Notes under the pieces: model-generated
The model's input: the letters and a program-made list of their open reading frames with translations, nothing else
Told to the model about the DNA's origin: nothing
Databases searched by the model: none
Program-made: the position numbers and the translations under genes
Part shown: positions 3,101 through 29,220 of the stretch, piece by piece
Layout: each line of letters begins with the position of its first letter
Numbering within the stretch: position 1 is the first letter of the stretch
NCBI RefSeq assembly: GCF_947489565.1
Contig: NZ_CANLEA010000008.1
Location: 186,001 to 250,000, forward strand
DNA: 64,000 nt
From: an uncultured Kordia sp.
GTDB lineage: Bacteria; Bacteroidota; Bacteroidia; Flavobacteriales; Flavobacteriaceae
Direction of reading: 5' to 3'

Positions 3101-5735
3101 TGGAGAAAATGACATGTTAGAGATTTCTGTTTCAGGAGATGTAGAAGATGTATTTTTAATAGACGAAGACTTTGAATCAGGTGGCTTAGGCGCATTTAGT
3201 AATGTAATTATCATAGACAATGGAGCCACCATAAACGCAAGAAGTGCATGGCAAAATCAAACCAGTACGTTTGTGCCAGCGGAAGAAGTATGGTTTCCAG
3301 CAATTTCTTCAGGTTTTGGAAGTGATCAATTTGTAATATGTAACTCGGATGTAGGTGCTGACGGATTTGGAACTTCATATATCACACACAATGCATTACA
3401 ATCAACAGCTTCATATGATACAACCGATTATGTAAACTTGACATTAAGTTTTGACTGTTATTACTCGCATTATCTAGATGATGGAACAGGAGGCGCAGAT
3501 GATTACTTTACCGTAGAAGTTTCAACAGATGGAACCAATTGGACAGCATTAACGGCAGATATCATTGCAGATGTCGGGATTGGGACAAAGTTTGACAATC
3601 TATCATATGATTTATCAACCTATATCAATGAGTTAACACTAAGCGTACGAATTCGTTTCTATGCAGTTTGGTCAGATGGTGTAGCTGTTGATAATGTTCA
3701 ACTCTTTGGAGATAAGGATGTAACAGCAGTAGATTGGACAACAACACCAGCAAATATTATCGATTTATATATTGATACAGATAATGACAACATCGGAGAT
3801 ACACCGTATGTATCCGGAAGTTATGAAACAGTATATGCAATGCCAACACTCGCACAATTAGAAGAAGCAGATTACTCTTTTACCATTGATGCAAACTTAG
3901 CCAACGGATGTGGAGCTGTAAGTTCAAACTTCAATGTAACAAACAATACACGAGTATTTGATAGTGCAGCAGATGCATGGGGAACGGCTGCCAACTGGGC
4001 ACAAAATATAGTACCAACTTCTGATGATTGTGTCATTATCAAAGACAACGGACTTATGGTGGATACACAAGCTACAGGAAATGGATTGGCAAGAAATATT
4101 ACCGTAAAAAATGGAGGTTATCTAGAACTGGCAACAGGTTCTTCCATCACTGTGACAGATTGGATCAATGTAGAAAGTGGAGGAACACTTCATGTAAGAG
4201 ATGGCGCTAATTTAATTCAAGTAACGGATGTAACTTCCAACAACAACACCGGAGAAATAGAAATGGATCGCACTGCAGTTGGAGTGAATACACTAGACTA
4301 TATTTATTGGTCTTCTCCAGTAGAAGATTTTGAAGTTACAGATGTATCGCCTGGCACAAGTCCTGGATTAATATTTCAATGGCAACCAACAGTTGCAGGA
4401 AATGGCTTAGGAAACTATGGTGAATGGCAAAGTGCTTCAGGAACTATGGGCATAGGAAACGGATATATTATTCGCGGTATTTCAGGAACAAGTATCGCCA
4501 ATACAGCAGAATTTGGTGGAGTTCCAAACAATGGAATTATCAATACCACAGTCACTAGAGGAACGTACACAGGAGTAGACTATCCAGGCGCAGGTGGAAC
4601 CAACGCAACAAATTTAGATGACAACTGGAACTTGGTAGGAAATCCATATCCATCAGCAATCTCAGCAGATGCATTTATTGCAGCGAATGCTTCCGTAATT
4701 ACCGATGATACCAATCCGTCAACAATCACAGGAACGGTATATCTTTGGAGACATTTAAGTACTCCAAGTAACGCGTATGGAGATCCTTTCTACAGTGACT
4801 ATCTATATAATTATAACGAAAATGATTATATCCAATACAATAGTACAGGATCAAATCCAGTAGGCTTCAATGGGAATATTGCTGCAGGACAAGCTTTCTT
4901 TGTACTAATGGATGATGCGGCACCAGCAAGTTCAATGATTCAGTTTAACAATAGCATGCGTGGAGTAGCATACACAAACGACCAATTCTACAGATCAAGT
5001 GATGATGAAGTTGGACAATTTGAAAACAATAGTGAAAGCACAACGACAATAGAAAAACACAGAATCTGGCTAGATATAATTTCACCAGATAATTCGGCAG
5101 CTTCTTCCTTAATAGGTTACATCACTGGAGCATCAAATGAACAAGATCGTTTGTTTGATGGAAACAATCTAAGTGATGCACCAACGCATATCTACTCGCT
5201 CATAGGAGAAGAAAAGATGGCAATTCAGGGAAGAGCAGTTCCTTTTGACCAACAAGACGAAGTTCCATTAGGTGTAAAGATCGCACAAAGCGGAAACTAT
5301 ACCATAGCAATCAATGCATTAGATGGATTGTTTGAAACTACCGATCAGAAAATCTACTTAGAAGATTTATATACCGATATGATTCACGATTTAAAACTGA
5401 CGCCGTACGATTTCTATTCAGAAGGTGGAGATTTTGAAGATCGTTTCATATTGAAATATGTAAAAACTAATGACAATACACTTGACTTAGAAGAATTTAA
5501 TTCCAATACAGGAATCGTAATTACTACCAACGAGAATCAAATCAAAGTACATGCATACAACAGTCAAATAGAAGCTATAACAATACATGATATTCTAGGG
5601 AAACGTTTGCTCGATCGTAAAAACATCAGCGAAGAAGTATATGACATTACTAATTTAAAACCGACAAACAGTACACTCATTGTGAAAGTCGTTTTAGAAA
5701 ACGGCAAACAGAAAATTCAAAAAGTCATTTACTAA
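186..5735 (+). CDS. Giant secreted multidomain protein with T9SS C-terminal sorting domain (four-module paralog)
   Basis: An 1849-residue secreted protein with an N-terminal signal peptide ending near TQAQC. Residues ~22-145 form a PPC-like (pre-peptidase C-terminal) domain. Four tandem modules of ~138-140 residues follow, each starting NDDC and carrying DDVWYSF, VIDLRSGAC and TYYVRVYS, at about residues 150, 289, 429 and 567. Next come a GEVED-type domain (~705-860, with WVDWNQDDVFD and GEAEDY), an Ig-like domain (YRWYDAETGG, ~900-985), and a MAM/choice-of-anchor-like domain opening with DEDFESG (~993-1180). A long middle region contains NGGYLELATGSSITV. The last ~80 residues (from ~1765) resemble the type C T9SS sorting signal: NQIKVHAYNSQIEAITIHD, a DILGKRLL turn and a basic KVVLENGKQKIQKVIY end. 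It is probably secreted and surface-attached or released. The ligand is unknown; adhesion is a guess. It is a tandem paralog of the next gene. Confidence 0.88.
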   Translation: MRSTLWLALIFVCFLISETQAQCSGINRIQCSTAAPTVVGNSISCTPPANQGGRRNFEVTNMIAGATYRLSNCGSGFDTQMTVRDASGTFVAFNDDNGPACTGTAASIDFTPTTTGDYRIHLNRYNCATTNNLNGDIVVTLLSTSSGPANDDCGTATSLSVSPTSTCVTLTAGDSSTATESISAISCGGFTGNSDDDVWYSFVATATNHDITARPGTLSDLVVDLRSGACDGTNIDCADNTTGANDEVINATGLSIGTTYYVRVYSYGGAANAGTFDICVTTPIVIPSNDDCANAIALGVSPTDTCVTSASGTTENATQSIAAINCGGTTGDADDDVWYSFVATAFEHDITVTPGTLSNAVIDLRSGACTGTNIDCADITGGTSSEVINATGLTLGATYYVRVYSRGSNTSQQGTFDICVTTPPQPPLNDDCSNATALTVSGTTCTTSVSGTTELATQSIAAISCNAATGDANDDVWYSFTATAANHDITVTSGTLTNAVIDLRSGACTGTNIDCADATTGTNNEVLNATGLSIGTTYYVRVYSFGSTGNEGTFDICVTTPIVPPANDDCTNATLLGVSPSNTCVTSVSGTTVDATQSIAAISCNGFTGNADDDVWYSFIATATSHDITVTPGTLSDAVLDLRSGACNGTNITCADNTTGSNAEVINATGLSIGTTYYVRVYSYGGTGNGTFDICVTTPVIIPGPCQPTTDTPGTMYIDEVAFLGTLEDVTNAGSGFSTGYQDFTGLSTISRQVEGEGINVYVEAPFRCTWKAWVDWNQDDVFDETTEEVYNSNFISTTTTTFGFVIPLGTTPGDYRIRIRNYTGFDYSLFDYNNSYDFDPCEDFNDTGTTIDELGEAEDYLFTVEPFCDALIDTITDGETCGTGTVDLSVTGTGTPSVTEYRWYDAETGGSLVATTLTGDWTTPSLSATTTYYVTAYNGTCESWVREPIVAKFNPIPTVTITPDVSNRVVCGENDMLEISVSGDVEDVFLIDEDFESGGLGAFSNVIIIDNGATINARSAWQNQTSTFVPAEEVWFPAISSGFGSDQFVICNSDVGADGFGTSYITHNALQSTASYDTTDYVNLTLSFDCYYSHYLDDGTGGADDYFTVEVSTDGTNWTALTADIIADVGIGTKFDNLSYDLSTYINELTLSVRIRFYAVWSDGVAVDNVQLFGDKDVTAVDWTTTPANIIDLYIDTDNDNIGDTPYVSGSYETVYAMPTLAQLEEADYSFTIDANLANGCGAVSSNFNVTNNTRVFDSAADAWGTAANWAQNIVPTSDDCVIIKDNGLMVDTQATGNGLARNITVKNGGYLELATGSSITVTDWINVESGGTLHVRDGANLIQVTDVTSNNNTGEIEMDRTAVGVNTLDYIYWSSPVEDFEVTDVSPGTSPGLIFQWQPTVAGNGLGNYGEWQSASGTMGIGNGYIIRGISGTSIANTAEFGGVPNNGIINTTVTRGTYTGVDYPGAGGTNATNLDDNWNLVGNPYPSAISADAFIAANASVITDDTNPSTITGTVYLWRHLSTPSNAYGDPFYSDYLYNYNENDYIQYNSTGSNPVGFNGNIAAGQAFFVLMDDAAPASSMIQFNNSMRGVAYTNDQFYRSSDDEVGQFENNSESTTTIEKHRIWLDIISPDNSAASSLIGYITGASNEQDRLFDGNNLSDAPTHIYSLIGEEKMAIQGRAVPFDQQDEVPLGVKIAQSGNYTIAINALDGLFETTDQKIYLEDLYTDMIHDLKLTPYDFYSEGGDFEDRFILKYVKTNDNTLDLEEFNSNTGIVITTNENQIKVHAYNSQIEAITIHDILGKRLLDRKNISEEVYDITNLKPTNSTLIVKVVLENGKQKIQKVIY

Positions 5736-22227: not shown

Positions 22228-22372
22228 AAATCAAGAGACAATCCACAAAAAACAAACAGACGAACAGTCAAATCAACAAAAAAACGAATCAACAAACAAA
22301 CAAATCCACAAAAAGTCTAAGAGCGAAGTGATCTAAGAATCCAAGAAGTCTAAGAATCTAAGAAGTCAACTC
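22228..22372. repeat. Low-complexity AATCAACAAA and AAGTCTAAGAATC spacer
   Basis: The first ~85 bases are AATCAACAAA-type strings. The next ~55 bases are repeats of AAGTCTAAGAATCTAAG, which also occur at 41503-41553. The end overlaps the last codons of gldA. Confidence 0.55.
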
Positions 22373-23251
22373 TCTAAACAAGCTCTCCAAATTTTTATTC
22401 TTCTGATTAATCTGTAAAGTCTTCAAGCTATTATCGTGTGCAAAATCAAACACAGTCGGACGCATATCTTTTGTTGTGCTAAACGTAAGTTCGTATACCA
22501 AACCACGTGTATTCACAACCTTTGTAACATGTGGAATCTGCTGAATCAATACCTCTTCAACGCGATAATCAAACTCTACTTCAATCACTTGTTCCTGATT
22601 CTTCTGAAGTTTCGCCAAAGTGGTATCAGCAACAATTTCACCTTTATTAATAATAATCACACGATCGCACAAAGCTTCCACTTCTTGCATAATATGAGTA
22701 GACAAAAAGATGGTTTTCTCCTTTCCTATAGAAGTAATCAAATTGCGAATCTCTGTCAACTGATTCGGATCTAAACCAGTAGTAGGTTCATCTAAAATCA
22801 ATACTTCCGGATCGTGTAGCAAAGCATTCGCTAAACCAACACGCTGACGATAACCTTTCGACAATTCACCAATCTTCTTTTTGGCTTCTGGCAACAATCC
22901 AGTCATTTGAATAACTTCATCAATACGCGATTTAGAAACTTTATACACATTTGCATTAAAAGCTAAATATTCGCGCACATGCATGTCCAAATACAACGGA
23001 TTGTGTTCTGGAAGATATCCAACACTCTTTTGTACGTTTCGCGCTTCTGTAGTCGTATCAAACTCGTTTACCGAAGCATTTCCAGAAGTCGCTTTCAAAT
23101 ACGTCGTCAATATTTTCATCATGGTAGACTTTCCAGCTCCATTAGGACCTAAAAAACCAACAATTTCTCCCTTAGTAACACGGAAAGAAACTGAGTTTAA
23201 GGCTTTTTGTTCACCATACGTTTTTGTGATATTTTCTACAACGATAGACAT
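22358..23251 (-). CDS. gldA: Gliding motility ABC transporter ATP-binding protein GldA
   Basis: 297 residues. It has Walker A GPNGAGKST (~35-43), the Q-loop region GYLPEHNPLY, signature LSKGYRQRVGLA (~134), Walker B VLILDEPTTGLDP, and switch His in FLSTHIMQE. The C-terminal ~80 residues match the GldA/NatA extension. GldA with GldF and GldG forms an ABC transporter linked to gliding in Flavobacterium; gldF and gldG are not in this window, so the transporter is split over the genome. gldB and gldC lie 35 kb further on. Confidence 0.88.
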   Translation of the reverse strand: MSIVVENITKTYGEQKALNSVSFRVTKGEIVGFLGPNGAGKSTMMKILTTYLKATSGNASVNEFDTTTEARNVQKSVGYLPEHNPLYLDMHVREYLAFNANVYKVSKSRIDEVIQMTGLLPEAKKKIGELSKGYRQRVGLANALLHDPEVLILDEPTTGLDPNQLTEIRNLITSIGKEKTIFLSTHIMQEVEALCDRVIIINKGEIVADTTLAKLQKNQEQVIEVEFDYRVEEVLIQQIPHVTKVVNTRGLVYELTFSTTKDMRPTVFDFAHDNSLKTLQINQKNKNLESLFRELTS

Positions 23252-23383
23252 ATTATAAGAGTTTGAAATTCAAAATTACATAAATTTTTATCAGTATTTC
23301 ACCATATTAAATCAAATAAAAACAAAAAAGAATACAGTTTATTGATAAAAACGTTTTTCTTCAAAAAATATTGGGAAACGATT

Positions 23384-23412
23384 TTGTTTATAAAAATTTA
23401 TCTATACTTTAG
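23384..23412 (+). promoter_or_regulatory. Promoter of the aromatic operon leader
   Basis: TTTTG at 23382-23386 and TACTTTAG at 23405-23412 are 18 bases apart, close to the Bacteroidota consensus TTTG / TANNTTTG. Transcription would start near 23419, about 16 bases before the leader peptide. Confidence 0.6.
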
Positions 23413-23434
23413 CTACAACAAATTGAAAGAAAAG

Positions 23435-23512
23435 ATGTTTAGTGCAAACTATTTTTGGCAAGGTTATTTTTACTTCTTCTACGGAAAGAGGTCGGAACGC
23501 TTTGTCTTATAG
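23435..23512 (+). CDS. Aromatic-residue-rich leader peptide of an attenuator
   Basis: 25 codons beginning MFSANYFWQGYFYFFYGKR. Eleven residues are aromatic (six Phe, four Tyr, one Trp), including YFYFFY in a row. It ends 29 bases before a strong terminator and 76 bases before prephenate dehydratase. This is the layout of E. coli pheL-type leaders, where ribosome stalling on scarce aminoacyl-tRNA controls termination. Bases 23492-23498 (TCGGAAC), late in the reading frame, are complementary to the 5' arm of the terminator (GTTCCGA, 23547-23553), giving an antiterminator. The peptide itself needs no further function. Confidence 0.75.
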   Translation: MFSANYFWQGYFYFFYGKRSERFVL

Positions 23513-23540
23513 TTTAGTTTAAACATAATAATATAGATAC

Positions 23541-23576
23541 AAAAAAGTTCCGAAATACATTCGGAACTTTTTTTTT
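23541..23576 (+). terminator. Attenuator terminator before the phenylalanine/tyrosine operon
   Basis: AAAAAAGTTCCGAA / TTCGGAACTTTTTT with a short loop and nine T. Placed between a Phe/Tyr-rich leader peptide and the prephenate dehydratase gene, it would stop transcription when aromatic aminoacyl-tRNA is plentiful. Confidence 0.85.
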
Positions 23577-23588
23577 GATTAAAAAACA

Positions 23589-24419
23589 ATGCAACAAACA
23601 ATAGCAATACAAGGAGTTCAAGGATCTAACCATCATAAAGTGGCGCAGCTATACTTTGGAGAAGAAGTACAGTTAGACGAATGCCTGTCTTTTGATGCGT
23701 TAGTGCATAGCTTAACACATGAAAAAAGTAGTTATGCAATCATGGCTTTGGAAAATACCATTGCAGGTTCCATAATCCCAAATTATGCACTAATTGATGC
23801 CAATAATGTTCATATCAATGGAGAATACTACTTAAACATTCATCATCATCTAATGGCGTTGCCCAATCAGACGATTGAAGATATTACCGAAGTATGTTCG
23901 CATCCAATGGCTTTATTGCAATGCAAAGAATTCTTTAAGCAATATCCGCATATCAAATTAGTAGAAGATGTAGATACGGCAGCCGTAGCCAGAAGAATTC
24001 AGGAAGAACAAAAAGAAGGAATTGCCGCAATCGCTACAAAAACAGCTGCAGAATTATTTCAGTTAAAAGTGCTTTCATCAGAAATTCAAACCATCAAAAC
24101 CAATGCGACACGTTTTGTCATTCTGCAAAAGCAAAAACCAATTGAAAATGTTGCCCAAATAGACAAAGCTTCGTTGCGATTTGAATTGGATCACAAAAGA
24201 GGAAGTCTGGCAACCATCTTAAATGTAATGAGCGATTGCAAGTTGAATCTCACCAAAATACAATCATTGCCAATTATTGAAACGCCTTGGAAATATGCCT
24301 TTTTCGTAGATGTTACATTTGAAGCCTATGAAGATTATACCAAAGCAATTGCTGTATTAGAAATAATGGCTACAAGTTTAAAAGTATTAGGAACTTACAA
24401 AAACCGACGAAACGCATGA
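23589..24419 (+). CDS. pheA: Prephenate dehydratase with ACT domain
   Basis: 276 residues, converting prephenate to phenylpyruvate. The dehydratase domain (~1-185) has GVQGSNHHKVA, MALENTIAGSI and the TRF motif (TNATRFVIL). The ACT domain (~195-270) has KRGSLATILNVMSDCKLNLTKIQS and a degenerate ESRP-type segment (LPIIETPWKY), consistent with phenylalanine feedback. There is no fused chorismate mutase; that activity is on the gene at 27118. It overlaps the next gene by 4 bases (ATGA). Confidence 0.93.
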   Translation: MQQTIAIQGVQGSNHHKVAQLYFGEEVQLDECLSFDALVHSLTHEKSSYAIMALENTIAGSIIPNYALIDANNVHINGEYYLNIHHHLMALPNQTIEDITEVCSHPMALLQCKEFFKQYPHIKLVEDVDTAAVARRIQEEQKEGIAAIATKTAAELFQLKVLSSEIQTIKTNATRFVILQKQKPIENVAQIDKASLRFELDHKRGSLATILNVMSDCKLNLTKIQSLPIIETPWKYAFFVDVTFEAYEDYTKAIAVLEIMATSLKVLGTYKNRRNA

Positions 24420-25561
24420 TTCCCGCAAAACGTATACATACCGTAGAAGAATACTATTTCTCTCGAAAATTAAGAGAAGTACGCGGCTTGGTAGCTGCCG
24501 GAAAACCCATTGTCAATCTCGGAATAGGAAGTCCAGATTTGCAACCGCCAGCAGTTGTAGTAAACGCACTAGAAGCAAGCTTGCACGATGAAACGGCACA
24601 CAAATATCAAAGCTATCAAGGAATTCCAGCCTTGCGAAAAGCAATTGCAGATTTCTATAAAAGAAACTATAATGTTGCTCTAGATGCGGATACAGAAGTA
24701 TTGCCACTTATGGGAAGTAAAGAAGGAATTATGCACATTTCTATGGCGTATTTGGATGAAGGAGATGAGGTGTTAATTGCCAATCCGAGTTATCCAACCT
24801 ATACTTCGGTAACCAAACTTTTAGGTGCTATTCCCAACTATTACAATTTAGATGCAAACAACAATTGGTTGCCAAATTTGGAAGAATTATCGAAGCGCGA
24901 TTTAACGAAAGTAAAACTCATGTGGGTAAACTATCCGCACATGCCAACGGGAGCAAAAGCGACAAGTACATTCTTTGAAAAACTCATTGCCTTTGCAAAA
25001 AAACATCAAATTCTCATCATCAATGACAATCCATATAGTTTTATTCTAAATGATGCGCCTATGAGTATACTCAGCATTGATGGCGCAAAAGAAGTGACAC
25101 TAGAACTCAATTCGCTCAGTAAATCGTTCAATATGGCAGGTTGGCGTACGGGAATGGTCATGGGAAAAGCGGAGCATATTCAACATGTATTAAAAGTAAA
25201 AAGTAATATGGATTCAGGAATGTTTTACGGAATACAAAAAGGTGCTATCAAAGCCTTAGAAAGTTCGAAAGACTGGTTTGCTGAACTCAATAAAATATAT
25301 GAAAAACGTCGTAAACTTATTTGGGAATTAGCGACAAAATTGCATTGTGAATTCGATACAGAAACCGCAGGCATGTTTGTATGGGCAAAATTACCAGCAG
25401 ACAATCAGCTTACATCAGAAGCATTCATAGACAAACTGCTCTATGAAAAAGACGTATTCATTACGCCAGGAAGCATTTTTGGAACGCAAGGCGAAGGATA
25501 TGTACGTTTCTCACTCTGTGTCACAGAAGAAAAAATAAAAGAAGTCATTCAACGAATCTGA
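24416..25561 (+). CDS. Class I/II pyridoxal-phosphate aminotransferase (aromatic operon)
   Basis: 381 residues, fold type I. It has GSPDLQPP, a YQSYQGIPALRKAIADFY segment, NPSYPTYTS, NYPHMPTGA, INDNPYSFI, and the PLP lysine K236 in SLSKSFNMAGWR. The C-terminal R in YVRFSLC is expected to bind the substrate carboxylate. By position between prephenate dehydratase and prephenate dehydrogenase it most likely converts phenylpyruvate and hydroxyphenylpyruvate to Phe and Tyr; specificity cannot be read from sequence. Confidence 0.9.
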   Translation: MIPAKRIHTVEEYYFSRKLREVRGLVAAGKPIVNLGIGSPDLQPPAVVVNALEASLHDETAHKYQSYQGIPALRKAIADFYKRNYNVALDADTEVLPLMGSKEGIMHISMAYLDEGDEVLIANPSYPTYTSVTKLLGAIPNYYNLDANNNWLPNLEELSKRDLTKVKLMWVNYPHMPTGAKATSTFFEKLIAFAKKHQILIINDNPYSFILNDAPMSILSIDGAKEVTLELNSLSKSFNMAGWRTGMVMGKAEHIQHVLKVKSNMDSGMFYGIQKGAIKALESSKDWFAELNKIYEKRRKLIWELATKLHCEFDTETAGMFVWAKLPADNQLTSEAFIDKLLYEKDVFITPGSIFGTQGEGYVRFSLCVTEEKIKEVIQRI

Positions 25562-25562
25562 T

Positions 25563-25946
25563 ATGGAAAAGCAAATAGCAATCATACAGGCATACATTGA
25601 TGCATACAACAATTTTGATATCTCAGGAATGATGCAAAATATGCAACGAGATATCATTTTTGAAAACTATGATGCTGAAAAACGAACGCTTTCTACAAAA
25701 GGAATTGAAGAATTTGAAACGCAGGCAAAAAAAGCAGCAACGTTATTTTCAATGCGGAATCAACAAATAAAAGGGATACAGAAAAATGATGCAAAAAATA
25801 CCATTGAAGTGTCCATAAAATATCAGGGGATTTTTGCAGTTGACATGACGGAAACTCTAAAAAAAGGAACTAAAATTACGCTCGAAGGGAAAAGTATTTT
25901 TTACTTCTTTGATCAAAAAATAAATAAAATAGTAGATAAAAGTTAA
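25563..25946 (+). CDS. SnoaL/NTF2-like protein inside the aromatic operon
   Basis: 127 residues with the pattern of the NTF2-like fold: an N-terminal helix pair (IIQAYIDAYNNFDISGMM), then curved-sheet strands ending in an aromatic strand (KSIFYFFDQKINKIVDKS). It starts one base after the aminotransferase stop and ends one base before the dehydrogenase start, so it is translated with them. Such small folds act as enzymes or binding domains; no catalytic residues are recognisable, and a role in aromatic metabolism is only implied by position. Confidence 0.7.
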   Translation: MEKQIAIIQAYIDAYNNFDISGMMQNMQRDIIFENYDAEKRTLSTKGIEEFETQAKKAATLFSMRNQQIKGIQKNDAKNTIEVSIKYQGIFAVDMTETLKKGTKITLEGKSIFYFFDQKINKIVDKS

Positions 25947-25947
25947 C

Positions 25948-26796
25948 ATGAACGTATACATCATAGGAATCGGACTCATAGGCGGAAGCATGTCACTGGA
26001 TATTCAATCAACATATCCAGAAGCAATGATCTATGGAGTAGATGTAAACGAAGCGCATTTGGAAGAAGCACTGCAAAGACAGTTAATTCATGAAAAAGCC
26101 ACGCTTCAAAATGTGCAAAATGCTGATATTGTGATTGTCACTATTCCTGTGCATGCTTCCATCGGAATCATTCAGGAAGTATTAGACACCATAAAAGATG
26201 ATACGTTGGTCATAGATGCAGGTTCAACGAAAGAAAAAATATGCGAAAGCATTGCAGCACATCCAAAACGACGCAACTTTTTAGCCGCGCATCCAATTGC
26301 TGGAACTGAATTTTCTGGACCTTCGGCGGCCATTAAAAGGTTATTTGATGGAAAAACAAACATCATCTGCGAAGTGGAAAAAACAGCGTTCAGTCTGCAA
26401 GAAAAAGCATTAGAACTGTTCAAAAACTTAGGCATGCGGATTCGGTATATGGATCCAAAATCACACGACAAACACATTGCATATGTATCGCATTTGTCGC
26501 ATATCAGTTCGTTTATGTTAGGAAAAACGGTCATTGAAAAAGAAAAAAACGAACGTGATATTTTCGATTTAGCAGGCAGCGGATTCGCTTCTACAGTACG
26601 TTTGGCAAAAAGCTCGCCAGCCATGTGGACGCCCATATTTGAGCAAAACAAAACCAATGTCATCGAAACACTCGATGAATATATCGCCAATTTACAGGAA
26701 TTTAAAAGCCTGATGTTGCAGGACAATTTTGAAGGAATTTATAAAGAAATGGAAAACACAAATCACATAAAAAAAATACTAAAGGGAATTGAATAA
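25948..26796 (+). CDS. tyrA: Prephenate dehydrogenase
   Basis: 282 residues. The N-terminal Rossmann motif is IIGIGLIGGSM with an acidic residue after strand 2 (GVDVNEAHLEEA). AHPIAGTEFSGPSAA and HDKHIAYVSHLSHISSF carry the catalytic and substrate-binding histidines of the family. It oxidatively decarboxylates prephenate to 4-hydroxyphenylpyruvate. It lacks an ACT domain and a fused mutase, typical for Bacteroidota. It is fourth gene after the attenuator. Confidence 0.92.
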   Translation: MNVYIIGIGLIGGSMSLDIQSTYPEAMIYGVDVNEAHLEEALQRQLIHEKATLQNVQNADIVIVTIPVHASIGIIQEVLDTIKDDTLVIDAGSTKEKICESIAAHPKRRNFLAAHPIAGTEFSGPSAAIKRLFDGKTNIICEVEKTAFSLQEKALELFKNLGMRIRYMDPKSHDKHIAYVSHLSHISSFMLGKTVIEKEKNERDIFDLAGSGFASTVRLAKSSPAMWTPIFEQNKTNVIETLDEYIANLQEFKSLMLQDNFEGIYKEMENTNHIKKILKGIE

Positions 26797-26800
26797 AAAT

Positions 26801-26935
26801 AATTTGGGCGTTTCCCTAACGGGTCGGGCTTTCGGCAGTCGCTTTTTACAAGCTGTCATTCCTGCGAAGACAGGAATCCACCTTGCAAAAGAGCTTCAAC
26901 AAAGCCTCAATCCCTAACGCGAATCAAAGATCATT
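26801..26935 (+). repeat. GGGCGTT...CCCTAACGCG repeat with nested GTCATTCCTGC palindrome
   Basis: It starts TTTGGGCGTTTCCCTAACGG and GTCGGGCTTTCGGC, runs to GCTTTTTACAAGC, and then carries a GTCATTCCTGCG...CAGGAATCC hairpin (26854-26879). It ends near GCAAAAGAGCTTCAACAAAG, CCTCAATCCCTAACGCG. This is the same family as 12279-12360 but with a different central insert. The rest to 27117 is AATCAACGAATC low-complexity DNA, and no gene is seen. Confidence 0.65.
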
Positions 26936-27117
26936 AAGTGCAGTCAAAGCAAACGCGGAACTTCACACAAAAGTGGAGAACAATCGAAAGTGAAATCAAA
27001 TGAAGAGGAAAACAAAAAACAAATTGACAAATCAACGAATCAACGAATCAACGAATCAACGAATCAACAAAATACAAAAAGACCAATTAACAAAAGATAA
27101 AAGATAAAAAGGTAATC

Positions 27118-28200
27118 ATGGAAAATAAAAAAGAACTCAGAAACTGGTTAAACGCCTTCGGATTAGAACATCCGATAGTAATCGCTGGTCCGTGTAGTGC
27201 GGAAACAGAAGATCAAGTATTAAATATTGCACATCAACTCAAAGATACGGATGCAACGGTATTGCGTGCAGGAATTTGGAAGCCACGTACACGTCCTGGA
27301 AACTTTGAAGGTGTAGGCGCATTAGGATTAAAATGGTTGCAAAAAGCCAAAGAAGAAACAGGAATGTTAACTGCAACAGAAGTTGCCAATGCAACACACG
27401 TACGTTTAGCATTAGAGCATGATATCGATGTATTATGGATTGGTGCGCGCTCTACCGTAAGTCCATTTATTGTACAAGAAATTGCAGATGCGTTGAATGG
27501 AACTGACAAAATTGTTTTGGTAAAAAATCCAGTAAATCCTGATTTAGCATTGTGGCTTGGAGCTGTAGAACGTTTGCATTCTGCTAATATTGAAAAATTA
27601 GGTGTAATTCACAGAGGATTTTCAACCTACGAAAAAACACGTTACAGAAACAATCCAGAATGGCAAATTCCAATTGAATTGCAAAACCGTTTCCCAGATT
27701 TACCATTAATACTAGATCCATCGCATATTGCAGGTCGTAGAGATATTATCTTCGATTTGTGTCAAACAGCTTTAGACTTAAGCTACGACGGACTCATGGT
27801 AGAAACACATTTTGATCCAGACAACGCATGGAGTGATGCCAAGCAGCAGATAAAACCAACGCGTTTGGTGGAAATCATGGAAGATTTAAAAATCAGAAAA
27901 GCGACCGATACAGAAGCAGAATATAGAAATGCCTTAAACACACTTCGTACACAAATTGATGTAATTGACCATCAATTAATCGAAACCTTAGGAAAACGTA
28001 TGAAAGTGGCAGACAAAATTGGAGCCTTGAAAAAAGAGAAAAACGTTGCCATCTTACAAACCAGACGTTGGAACGAAATCCTTGGAAAAATGATTCTAGA
28101 AGGTGAGCAAAATCAACTAAGTGAAGAATTTGTATTGCGTATTTTCAAAGCTATTCACCAAGAATCGATCAATCACCAAGAAAAAATAATAAATAACTAA
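27118..28200 (+). CDS. aroG: Bifunctional 3-deoxy-7-phosphoheptulonate synthase / chorismate mutase
   Basis: 360 residues. Residues ~1-265 are the KDPG-type (AroF-like) DAHP synthase: IVIAGPCSAE, RAGIWKPRTRPGNFEG, VLVKNPVNPD, HRGFS and LILDPSHIAGRR. Residues ~275-360 are an AroQ-type chorismate mutase (NTLRTQIDVIDHQLIETLGKR and a conserved ILQTRRW-type loop). It supplies the committed step of the shikimate pathway and the branch to prephenate. It follows tyrA after 321 bases of repeats, so it may be in the same operon or have its own promoter. Confidence 0.95.
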   Translation: MENKKELRNWLNAFGLEHPIVIAGPCSAETEDQVLNIAHQLKDTDATVLRAGIWKPRTRPGNFEGVGALGLKWLQKAKEETGMLTATEVANATHVRLALEHDIDVLWIGARSTVSPFIVQEIADALNGTDKIVLVKNPVNPDLALWLGAVERLHSANIEKLGVIHRGFSTYEKTRYRNNPEWQIPIELQNRFPDLPLILDPSHIAGRRDIIFDLCQTALDLSYDGLMVETHFDPDNAWSDAKQQIKPTRLVEIMEDLKIRKATDTEAEYRNALNTLRTQIDVIDHQLIETLGKRMKVADKIGALKKEKNVAILQTRRWNEILGKMILEGEQNQLSEEFVLRIFKAIHQESINHQEKIINN

Positions 28201-28265: not shown

Positions 28266-28511
28266 ATGAAAAAAAAGAAGTCAATAGCTAAATTTAGTAT
28301 CACAAAAAGTAAAATAGCGAAGTTAAATTATTACAAAGCAGTTAGTGTAGTAGGAGGTGCAGTCTCAGGAACAGACTATCTGGCTTGTAATCCTCCGAAA
28401 CCAACTGGACTAGAATGTTTAAATGATTCAAGACGATGTCACGAAAGTGAAGTAATTTCTTGTTACAGCCCATGTGGTGGTACAGCAGCAACTACTGGTT
28501 GTAATCAATAA
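28266..28511 (+). CDS. Lanthipeptide-type precursor peptide, six-cysteine core
   Basis: 81 residues. The leader KKKKSIAKFSITKSKIAKLN follows the KxxIxxLN type and continues to VSVVGG. The core of ~50 residues has six cysteines (LACNPP, LECLND, RRCHES, ISCYSP, PCGG, GCNQ), many Ser/Thr and three Pro. It is the only plus-strand member of this second cluster; its leader is less regular than the others, so assignment to the class is moderate. A hairpin terminator follows. Confidence 0.7.
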   Translation: MKKKKSIAKFSITKSKIAKLNYYKAVSVVGGAVSGTDYLACNPPKPTGLECLNDSRRCHESEVISCYSPCGGTAATTGCNQ

Positions 28512-28765: not shown

Positions 28766-28960
28766 TTAGCATACATTTTCACAACCAGAAAACATTCCTG
28801 TGTTTCTTGTCTTTTTAATAGGCTTTACTTGACAACAACTTGTACCTCCTTGGCAAGGTCCTTCACAAGTATTAGCCTGATGCCCTCCATTAACTGAATG
28901 ATAAAAACTGATGATTGATTTCTTATTGAGCATTAAATTTTTGATATTCTTTTTTTTCAT
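28766..28960 (-). CDS. Lanthipeptide-type precursor peptide, six-cysteine core
   Basis: 64 residues. The leader MKKKNIKNLMLNKKSIISFY runs to VNGG. The core has six cysteines including a CC pair (TCEGPC, GTSCCQ, GCENVC) and two basic stretches. It lies 56 bases downstream of 29017-29220 on the same strand and is probably co-transcribed with it. Confidence 0.78.
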   Translation of the reverse strand: MKKKNIKNLMLNKKSIISFYHSVNGGHQANTCEGPCQGGTSCCQVKPIKKTRNTGMFSGCENVC

Positions 28961-29016: not shown

Positions 29017-29220
29017 CTAGCAACCATCTAAATAAACACAAGTATTTAATCCTTGGCAAGTAGCATCATTTCCTGGGCTTGAAACTGGAGCTGGTTTTTT
29101 CTCTCTACACCAAAATAAAGACCACAAAACTCCCCCATGAATTTTGTTAACTGTTTTTTTATTCAAAGTAGAAATTGACTTCTTGTTCAATTGTAAACTC
29201 TTTAAATTTCTTTTCTTCAT
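29017..29220 (-). CDS. Lanthipeptide-type precursor peptide, four-cysteine core
   Basis: 67 residues. The leader MKKRNLKSLQLNKKSISTLN continues NKIHGG. The core has a Trp pair (LWSLFWC) and Cys in FWC, TCQG, TCVY and DGC. It is first intact gene of the minus-strand group. An A-rich block upstream of it (29252-29297) resembles one upstream of the pseudogene at 29298-29389. Confidence 0.78.
   Translation of the reverse strand: MKKRNLKSLQLNKKSISTLNKKTVNKIHGGVLWSLFWCREKKPAPVSSPGNDATCQGLNTCVYLDGC

Follow-up and report, generated by a model that had tools for sequence, protein, structure and literature searches.

A candidate Phe/Tyr attenuator ahead of the pheA-tyrA operon of a Kordia species and its relatives in Bacteroidota

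The aromatic amino-acid operon described here is very probably governed by a ribosome-mediated transcription attenuator, in which the Phe and Tyr codons of a short leader peptide would be read ahead of pheA, an aminotransferase gene and tyrA, probably also ahead of a DAHP synthase gene. This reading is supported by comparison with relatives (conservation, covariation and descent) and by a ribosome footprint model, which together uphold the preliminary description of the locus as an aromatic amino-acid attenuator; from them we infer where transcription starts and that, in cells, ribosomes stall and termination occurs and is relieved. In particular, the locus combines a leader rich in codons for the products, an intrinsic terminator before the first gene, an antiterminator with compensatory changes and, in the model, the stall and stop logic of an attenuator. 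The window is the whole 64,000-nucleotide stretch of Kordia DNA that was analysed; coordinates refer to it unless a locus number is given.

The leader, the terminator and the operon

The elements and genes lie as follows:

23383..23412, + strand: putative promoter of the Bacteroidota type (TTTG at 23383-23386, 18-nt spacer, TACTTTAG at 23405-23412)
23435..23512, + strand: leader peptide frame MFSANYFWQGYFYFFYGKRSERFVL, from translation of the frame, stop codon at 23510-23512
23435..23526, + strand: alternative hairpin (1:2 type), predicted from pairs with probability >0.5, which would sequester segment 2 without a ribosome
23465..23482, + strand: putative regulatory codons YFYFFY, codons 11-16 of the leader, from translation of the frame
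23492..23498, + strand: segment 2, the predicted antiterminator strand TCGGAAC, which pairs with 23547-23553 and covaries across 60 clusters
23541..23576, + strand: intrinsic terminator (stem 23541-23554 / 23560-23573, loop 23555-23559, T run to 23576)
23547..23553, + strand: segment 3, GTTCCGA, within the terminator 5' arm, partner of segment 2
23589..24419, + strand: pheA, prephenate dehydratase, the predicted first regulated gene (PF00800, E 1.1e-53)
24416..25561, + strand: class I/II aminotransferase (PF00155, E 1.7e-62)
25563..25946, + strand: SnoaL-like protein (PF12680, 26.8 bits against a cut-off of 27)
25948..26796, + strand: tyrA, prephenate dehydrogenase (PF02153, PF20463; NF006307 above cut-off)
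27118..28200, + strand: DAHP synthase / chorismate mutase (PF00793, PF01817), 321 nt behind tyrA

Translation of the frame gives 25 residues and a stop, and 11 of the residues are Phe, Tyr or Trp; Tyr6, Phe7 and Trp8 (23450-23458) come directly ahead of the YFYFFY run. The preliminary description had read this frame from the letters, together with a strong terminator before prephenate dehydratase and the pairing of TCGGAAC with GTTCCGA; translation, the terminator search with its fold and the computed duplex bear out the three readings, and all the coordinates given for frame, terminator, dehydratase and paired segments are exact, base for base. Such a frame is rare: among 724 ATG frames of 15-45 codons on both strands of the window, a single one carries 8 aromatics within 10 codons, and it is this leader; a comparable frame turned up in 2 of the 5000 sequences obtained by dinucleotide shuffling of 23250-23588. 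By a wider rule (8 aromatics in 10, or 11 in total) 12 of 1020 window frames are equally aromatic; this control takes the longest frame per stop and allows GTG and TTG starts, whereby the real leader becomes 56 codons long and drops out. None of the 12 is followed within 120 nt by a hairpin with T run more stable than -4.5 kcal/mol.

The putative promoter scores 9/10 in the window, and on direct reading TACTTTAG agrees at 5 of 6 fixed positions with TAnnTTTG, which we take to be the consensus of Bacteroidota promoters. Over 59 clusters of relatives the mean promoter score is 8.80 versus 7.38 in shuffles, with at least 9 in 40/59. Direct reading revealed no evident Shine-Dalgarno sequence at the window leader; to our knowledge, Bacteroidota mostly work without Shine-Dalgarno initiation.

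The terminator stem has 14 pairs and a predicted fold of -15.8 kcal/mol. It is the one terminator-like site found in 23250-23650, where shuffles lead one to expect 0.1, and the fold of 23400-23600 is far more stable than that of shuffled sequences (z -5.52). Because the upstream neighbour gene (22358-23251) lies on the minus strand and runs the opposite way, the plus-strand terminator does not close it and therefore separates the promoter from the operon described here. The best duplex of segment 2 with segment 3 (2:3 below) adds 23501-23503 with 23542-23544 and reaches a dG of -11.3. Within the alternative hairpin, a feature beyond the preliminary description, the predicted pairs join, for example, 23457-23464 with 23499-23506 and 23467-23473 with 23491-23497.

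The gene content of the operon amounts to steps toward both Phe and Tyr. The pheA product shows a weak match to the ACT domain (PF01842, 21.5 bits, cut-off 27), and NF008865 stays below its own cut-off. The DAHP synthase / chorismate mutase gene is likely part of the same operon. A SnoaL-like gene is placed between the aminotransferase gene and tyrA, and its role in aromatic synthesis is not evident; the gap between tyrA and DAHP synthase (26797-27117) holds a tandem array of AATCAACG x4.9 at 27030-27068. Directly behind the operon lie three small peptides that contain Cys and resemble one another in their basic N-termini, at 28266-28511 (+), 28766-28960 (-) and 29017-29220 (-). Similarity to the class I lanthipeptide leader NF038153, though under the cut-off, was seen for the peptides at 28266 and 29017, and the one at 28766-28960 had no profile match.

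In the mechanism that we propose, transcription would begin some 15 nt upstream of the leader ATG. When Phe- or Tyr-tRNA is short, a ribosome would stall in codons 11-16, or on Tyr6, Phe7 or Trp8, break the hairpin 23435-23526 and leave 23492-23498 free; the free strand would then capture the terminator 5' arm (23547-23553), and RNA polymerase would read into pheA. With Phe and Tyr both plentiful, the ribosome would reach the stop at 23510 and cover 23492-23498, the terminator would form and transcription would end near 23576.

Conservation, covariation and descent

Sequence comparison places relatives of this switch in several groups within the phylum Bacteroidota. An aromatic leader stands upstream of 139 of the 179 scorable pheA loci (the window counted, in a set that includes the best 80 of 563 relatives): it is present in 104/104 loci with at least 60% dehydratase identity to the window, 5/5 at 50-60%, 30/37 at 39-50% and 0/33 below 39%. 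Among the loci listed, this makes 109/109 at 50% identity or more, a class that is mainly Flavobacteriaceae because the sample is drawn from the best 80 of 563 relatives. The dehydratase of the window is nearest to Kordia among the loci compared (91% identity to locus L001), and the comparison across Kordia-like genomes that the preliminary description had proposed found the leader in 8/8 Kordia loci. A terminator kept without the frame or the alternative pairing had been named there as the pattern that would speak against an attenuator; what the leader-bearing loci hold is frame, aromatic codons, pairing and terminator together.

The 179 loci comprise 80 named ones, the top-ranking of 563 confirmed relatives, automatic loci from 146 order-level and 198 phylum-level genomes, and 59 usable picked places. 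Matches occurred in 87 genomes of the order-level set and 172 of the phylum-level set, the two sets overlapping, and from these the upstream sequence was read at 42 automatic loci (L081-L122) and the 59 picked ones (one repeat). Some calls were made by hand: L003, L008 and L065 were set to 'leader', the leader lying more than 500 nt upstream and beyond the first full search, as were L107 and L109, which fall just under the threshold of 6 aromatics in 10. The candidate leader of L150 proved false, with no terminator nearby, and was set to 'none'. L055, with 150 nt of upstream sequence only, was left unscored, and L149 was dropped as the same place as L114. Probable duplicate genomes are among the 179 (for example L049/L084 and L017/L082, whose contigs are equal in length), and near-identical leaders count only once in the 60 sequence clusters, which were built from 135 leader loci once the false leader L150 had been taken out. 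The hairpin parser chose a wrong stem in L054, a locus that is not among the 60 cluster representatives.

The leader peptides of relatives vary, as examples such as MLQNVWQGFYFYFYFFSKR.., MTKQYFWNGFYFYFFFKRGTGLL, ..NWFYFFFSKRNETLYV and MKLFNTYYFGYFYYFSKSRG illustrate, and the strand complementary to the terminator starts 0-15 nt after the Phe/Tyr run in the visible rows. Every run in the 60 clusters contains both Phe and Tyr, and Trp occurs in 34/60 leaders. All 434 TTN and TAN codons of these runs end in a pyrimidine, that is, they encode Phe or Tyr and not Leu or stop, which argues that the run is kept as codons and not as U-rich RNA. Segment 2, conversely, is conserved as RNA, since the motif GAGRCTT behind the run is kept wherever it falls relative to the frame: inside it in 17 loci, at the stop codon or beyond it in 16.

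The spacing between attenuator and pheA also varies. In six Kordia loci (L001, L003, L004, L005, L007 and L008) extra sequence separates the two and leaves the attenuator intact: the leader stop lies 166 to ~480 nt from pheA, a distance that is 76 nt in the window. In Gelidibacter salicanalis (L065, ~3500-3900) an array of ~110-nt repeats, seen by eye, stands between terminator and pheA; Tenacibaculum caenipelagi (L009) has a pair of tRNA genes ahead of the attenuator (3543-3732) and a SAM-II riboswitch on the opposite strand (1931-2005).

Among the relatives, changes in the antiterminator go along with changes in the terminator. Across the 60 clusters the 2:3 pairing averages -12.1 kcal/mol with the own partner, -7.7 with swapped partners, -6.1 with a shuffled segment-2 region and -3.5 with a control before the ATG. 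The own pairing is better than the mean swap in 58/60 clusters (L091 and L120 are weaker), falls within the best 5% of shuffles in 50/60 and in 60/60 exceeds the control taken 40 nt ahead of the ATG; it falls within the best 10% of swaps in 31/60 only, a figure that probably reflects core sequences shared by related clusters. The clusters still being related, Wilcoxon p values of this test overstate independence. The uninterrupted 2:3 helices come in 54 different forms among the 60 clusters, with a median of 7 pairs and a shortest helix of 4. The pairing of the 1:2 type is less regular: it beats swapped partners in 44/60 clusters only, and in the window, as segmented in the swap test, it gives -3.3 for its own partner versus -6.9 for swapped ones, although the full fold does show the hairpin.

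A tree was built from 100 dehydratases, of which 60 have a leader and 40 lack one; all 60 leader-bearing proteins fall in one clade of 67 (SH-aLRT 99, by a quick tree method), and the leader label needs 5 changes on the tree versus 31.5 in shuffles. The seven leaderless members form four lineages and include L146 and L148, from genomes of 0.6 Mb, and the related L111-L113. Most simply, the leader arose once and was lost several times, a reading that this unrooted count suggests and does not prove.

Ribosome position, default state and other readings

In the footprint model the RNA is cut just before the terminator 3' arm and treated as covered up to 13 nt past the first base of the A-site codon. 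A modelled stall in the run makes 2:3 highly probable and a ribosome at the stop brings it to near 0 in 60/60 clusters; the stop side is in part a product of the model's design, which disregards RNA behind the leading edge. For the window the 2:3 probability is 0.99 with a stall on Tyr16 and 0.09 on Gly17, the switch thus falling at the end of the run. Within this model, the earlier proposal that a stall on YFYFFY would free the antiterminator strand and a ribosome at the stop would cover it is borne out.

With leading edges at A+10, 12, 14, 16 and 18, a mid-run stall is permissive in 60/60 clusters throughout, and a stall on the last run codon in 60, 60, 54, 35 and 15 of 60, respectively. The last permissive codon of the window shifts only from 17 to 15 over leading edges of 10-18 nt, and the stop position blocks 2:3 in 58 to 60 of 60 clusters across footprints. 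At the window stop a ribosome would cover about 23493-23522, nearly all of segment 2, if its footprint has the size that we assume. The leader stop of some relatives is as much as 31 nt beyond the start of segment 2, where a ribosome on the stop codon would not necessarily cover that segment.

Without a ribosome, the model gives a 2:3 probability of 0.00 in the window, because the hairpin 23435-23526 hides segment 2. Among the 60 clusters the same probability is at least 0.5 in 48 and below 0.5 in 12 (mean 0.74); an untranslated leader may thus leave the operon ON in most clusters, where 2:3 forms without a ribosome, and OFF in the window. The default state may therefore differ between lineages, in the model at least. 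It is conceivable, if rather unlikely, that the default is altogether reversed: many relatives would lack a protecting 1:2 hairpin, the operon would be ON unless the leader is completed, and termination would report finished translation. The 48 clusters and the modest showing of 1:2 against swapped partners suggest such a design; the window itself, with its sequestering hairpin, does not fit it, and the calculation is one of equilibrium, whereas 1:2 forms first in transcription and may be kinetically held.

A leader that controls the translation of pheA, or a constitutive terminator that merely lowers basal transcription, would be very unlikely accounts: segment 3 is an arm of the terminator and not the start region of pheA, the six Kordia loci keep the attenuator intact at their larger distances from the gene, and a constitutive terminator would have no need of a covarying antiterminator. 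Least probable of all, and by our estimate almost negligible, is a riboswitch or protein-binding leader RNA with an incidental frame: a conserved, structured 5' region with a terminator would suit it, but the Phe and Tyr codons are what is conserved while the pairings vary freely, and no Rfam family exceeded its cut-off at the scanned pheA leaders (the window and 8 + 16 loci in two scans, T-box and other riboswitches included).

Returning to the transcription attenuator read by Phe and Tyr codons, a broader but rather unlikely history can be sketched: an early Bacteroidota attenuator, inherited with one dehydratase clade, with a mixed Phe/Tyr run and a reversed default in most lineages. If this were true, the reversed-default attenuator would measure finished translation and would demonstrate tight coupling of transcription and translation in Bacteroidota.

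Known attenuators and further leaders in the genome

In E. coli, the pheL-pheA attenuator likewise couples a leader rich in product codons to prephenate dehydratase as the first gene, by way of mutually exclusive antiterminator and terminator. Of the 'pheL logic' that the preliminary description had seen here, the way of working stands; membership in the Rfam family RF01859 Phe_leader does not (19.4 bits, gathering cut-off 55), nor does a leader for Phe alone, since the run mixes Phe and Tyr in every cluster. Unlike pheL, the window leader belongs to an operon that serves both amino acids, and it has another sequence and structure, a Bacteroidota-like promoter and no evident Shine-Dalgarno sequence. 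The pheA leader element would make a new Rfam family. Vitreschak's 2004 article in FEMS Microbiol Lett reportedly mentions Bacteroidetes.

Another neighbour is Bacteroid-trp (RF01692), listed in Rfam as a Trp peptide leader of Bacteroidota (Weinberg 2010, Table 1; PMC2864571), which is also a peptide-leader RNA ahead of an aromatic amino-acid operon. Unlike the pheA leader of the window, it has Trp codons and trp genes, and RF01692 had no match at the scanned pheA leaders (the window and 8 + 16 loci in two scans). According to a 2010 survey, systems of leader-peptide control had been known, before its own case in Firmicutes, from Proteobacteria and Actinobacteria only. The transcriptome of Flavobacterium psychrophilum includes a structured 5' element ahead of pheA, the same gene in the same family, which is without an Rfam hit and occurs also in other genera of Flavobacteriaceae, and its authors report 'strong clues' that leader peptides attenuate amino-acid operons (PMC9723704). 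Neither the principle nor a pheA element in Flavobacteriaceae is thus new; the passage on them in that study does not name the leader, its codons, its pairings or a range beyond the family (PMC9723704). In the open-licence papers searched we found neither the run of Phe and Tyr codons nor the covariation of the pairings, the wider range or the common descent. By sequence comparison, the pheA attenuator is a deeply conserved, Phe-and-Tyr representative of a known attenuator type, working on a textbook principle; it would provide a precise and testable aromatic attenuator in a phylum for which leader-peptide control is only sketched in the open literature.

Other leaders were sought in the same genome. 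Seven successive TWY codons gave 22 matches there, not above the reversed-pattern control (12 and 20), and none of 20 TWY-run loci combined a short frame with a strong terminator, except for a hairpin of -10.7 behind the frame in L207. For threonine, no T-run terminator was found at the two homoserine dehydrogenase loci of the genome, and two loci of the chorismate-binding family (L184, L186) showed no terminator with a matching leader. Upstream of chosen genes, three candidates with terminators, which the preliminary description does not mention, were found: a His leader MSYTQLHHHHFHTCPQAS before hisG (L183), a Trp leader MYKNLVNTWWWNLRTSES before trpE (L185) and an Ile/Val leader MNQITSIIVIVIIIMNST before the ilv cluster (L188), whose 2:3 pairings (-7.9, -5.5 and -5.8, respectively) are weaker than that of the pheA leader. 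Classical attenuation requires a ribosome close behind RNA polymerase; with four candidate leaders (Phe/Tyr, Trp, His and Ile/Val) in one genome, transcription-translation coupling in Bacteroidota becomes directly testable. The leader region of trpE matches Rfam RF01692 Bacteroid-trp with 57.3 bits against a cut-off of 49.
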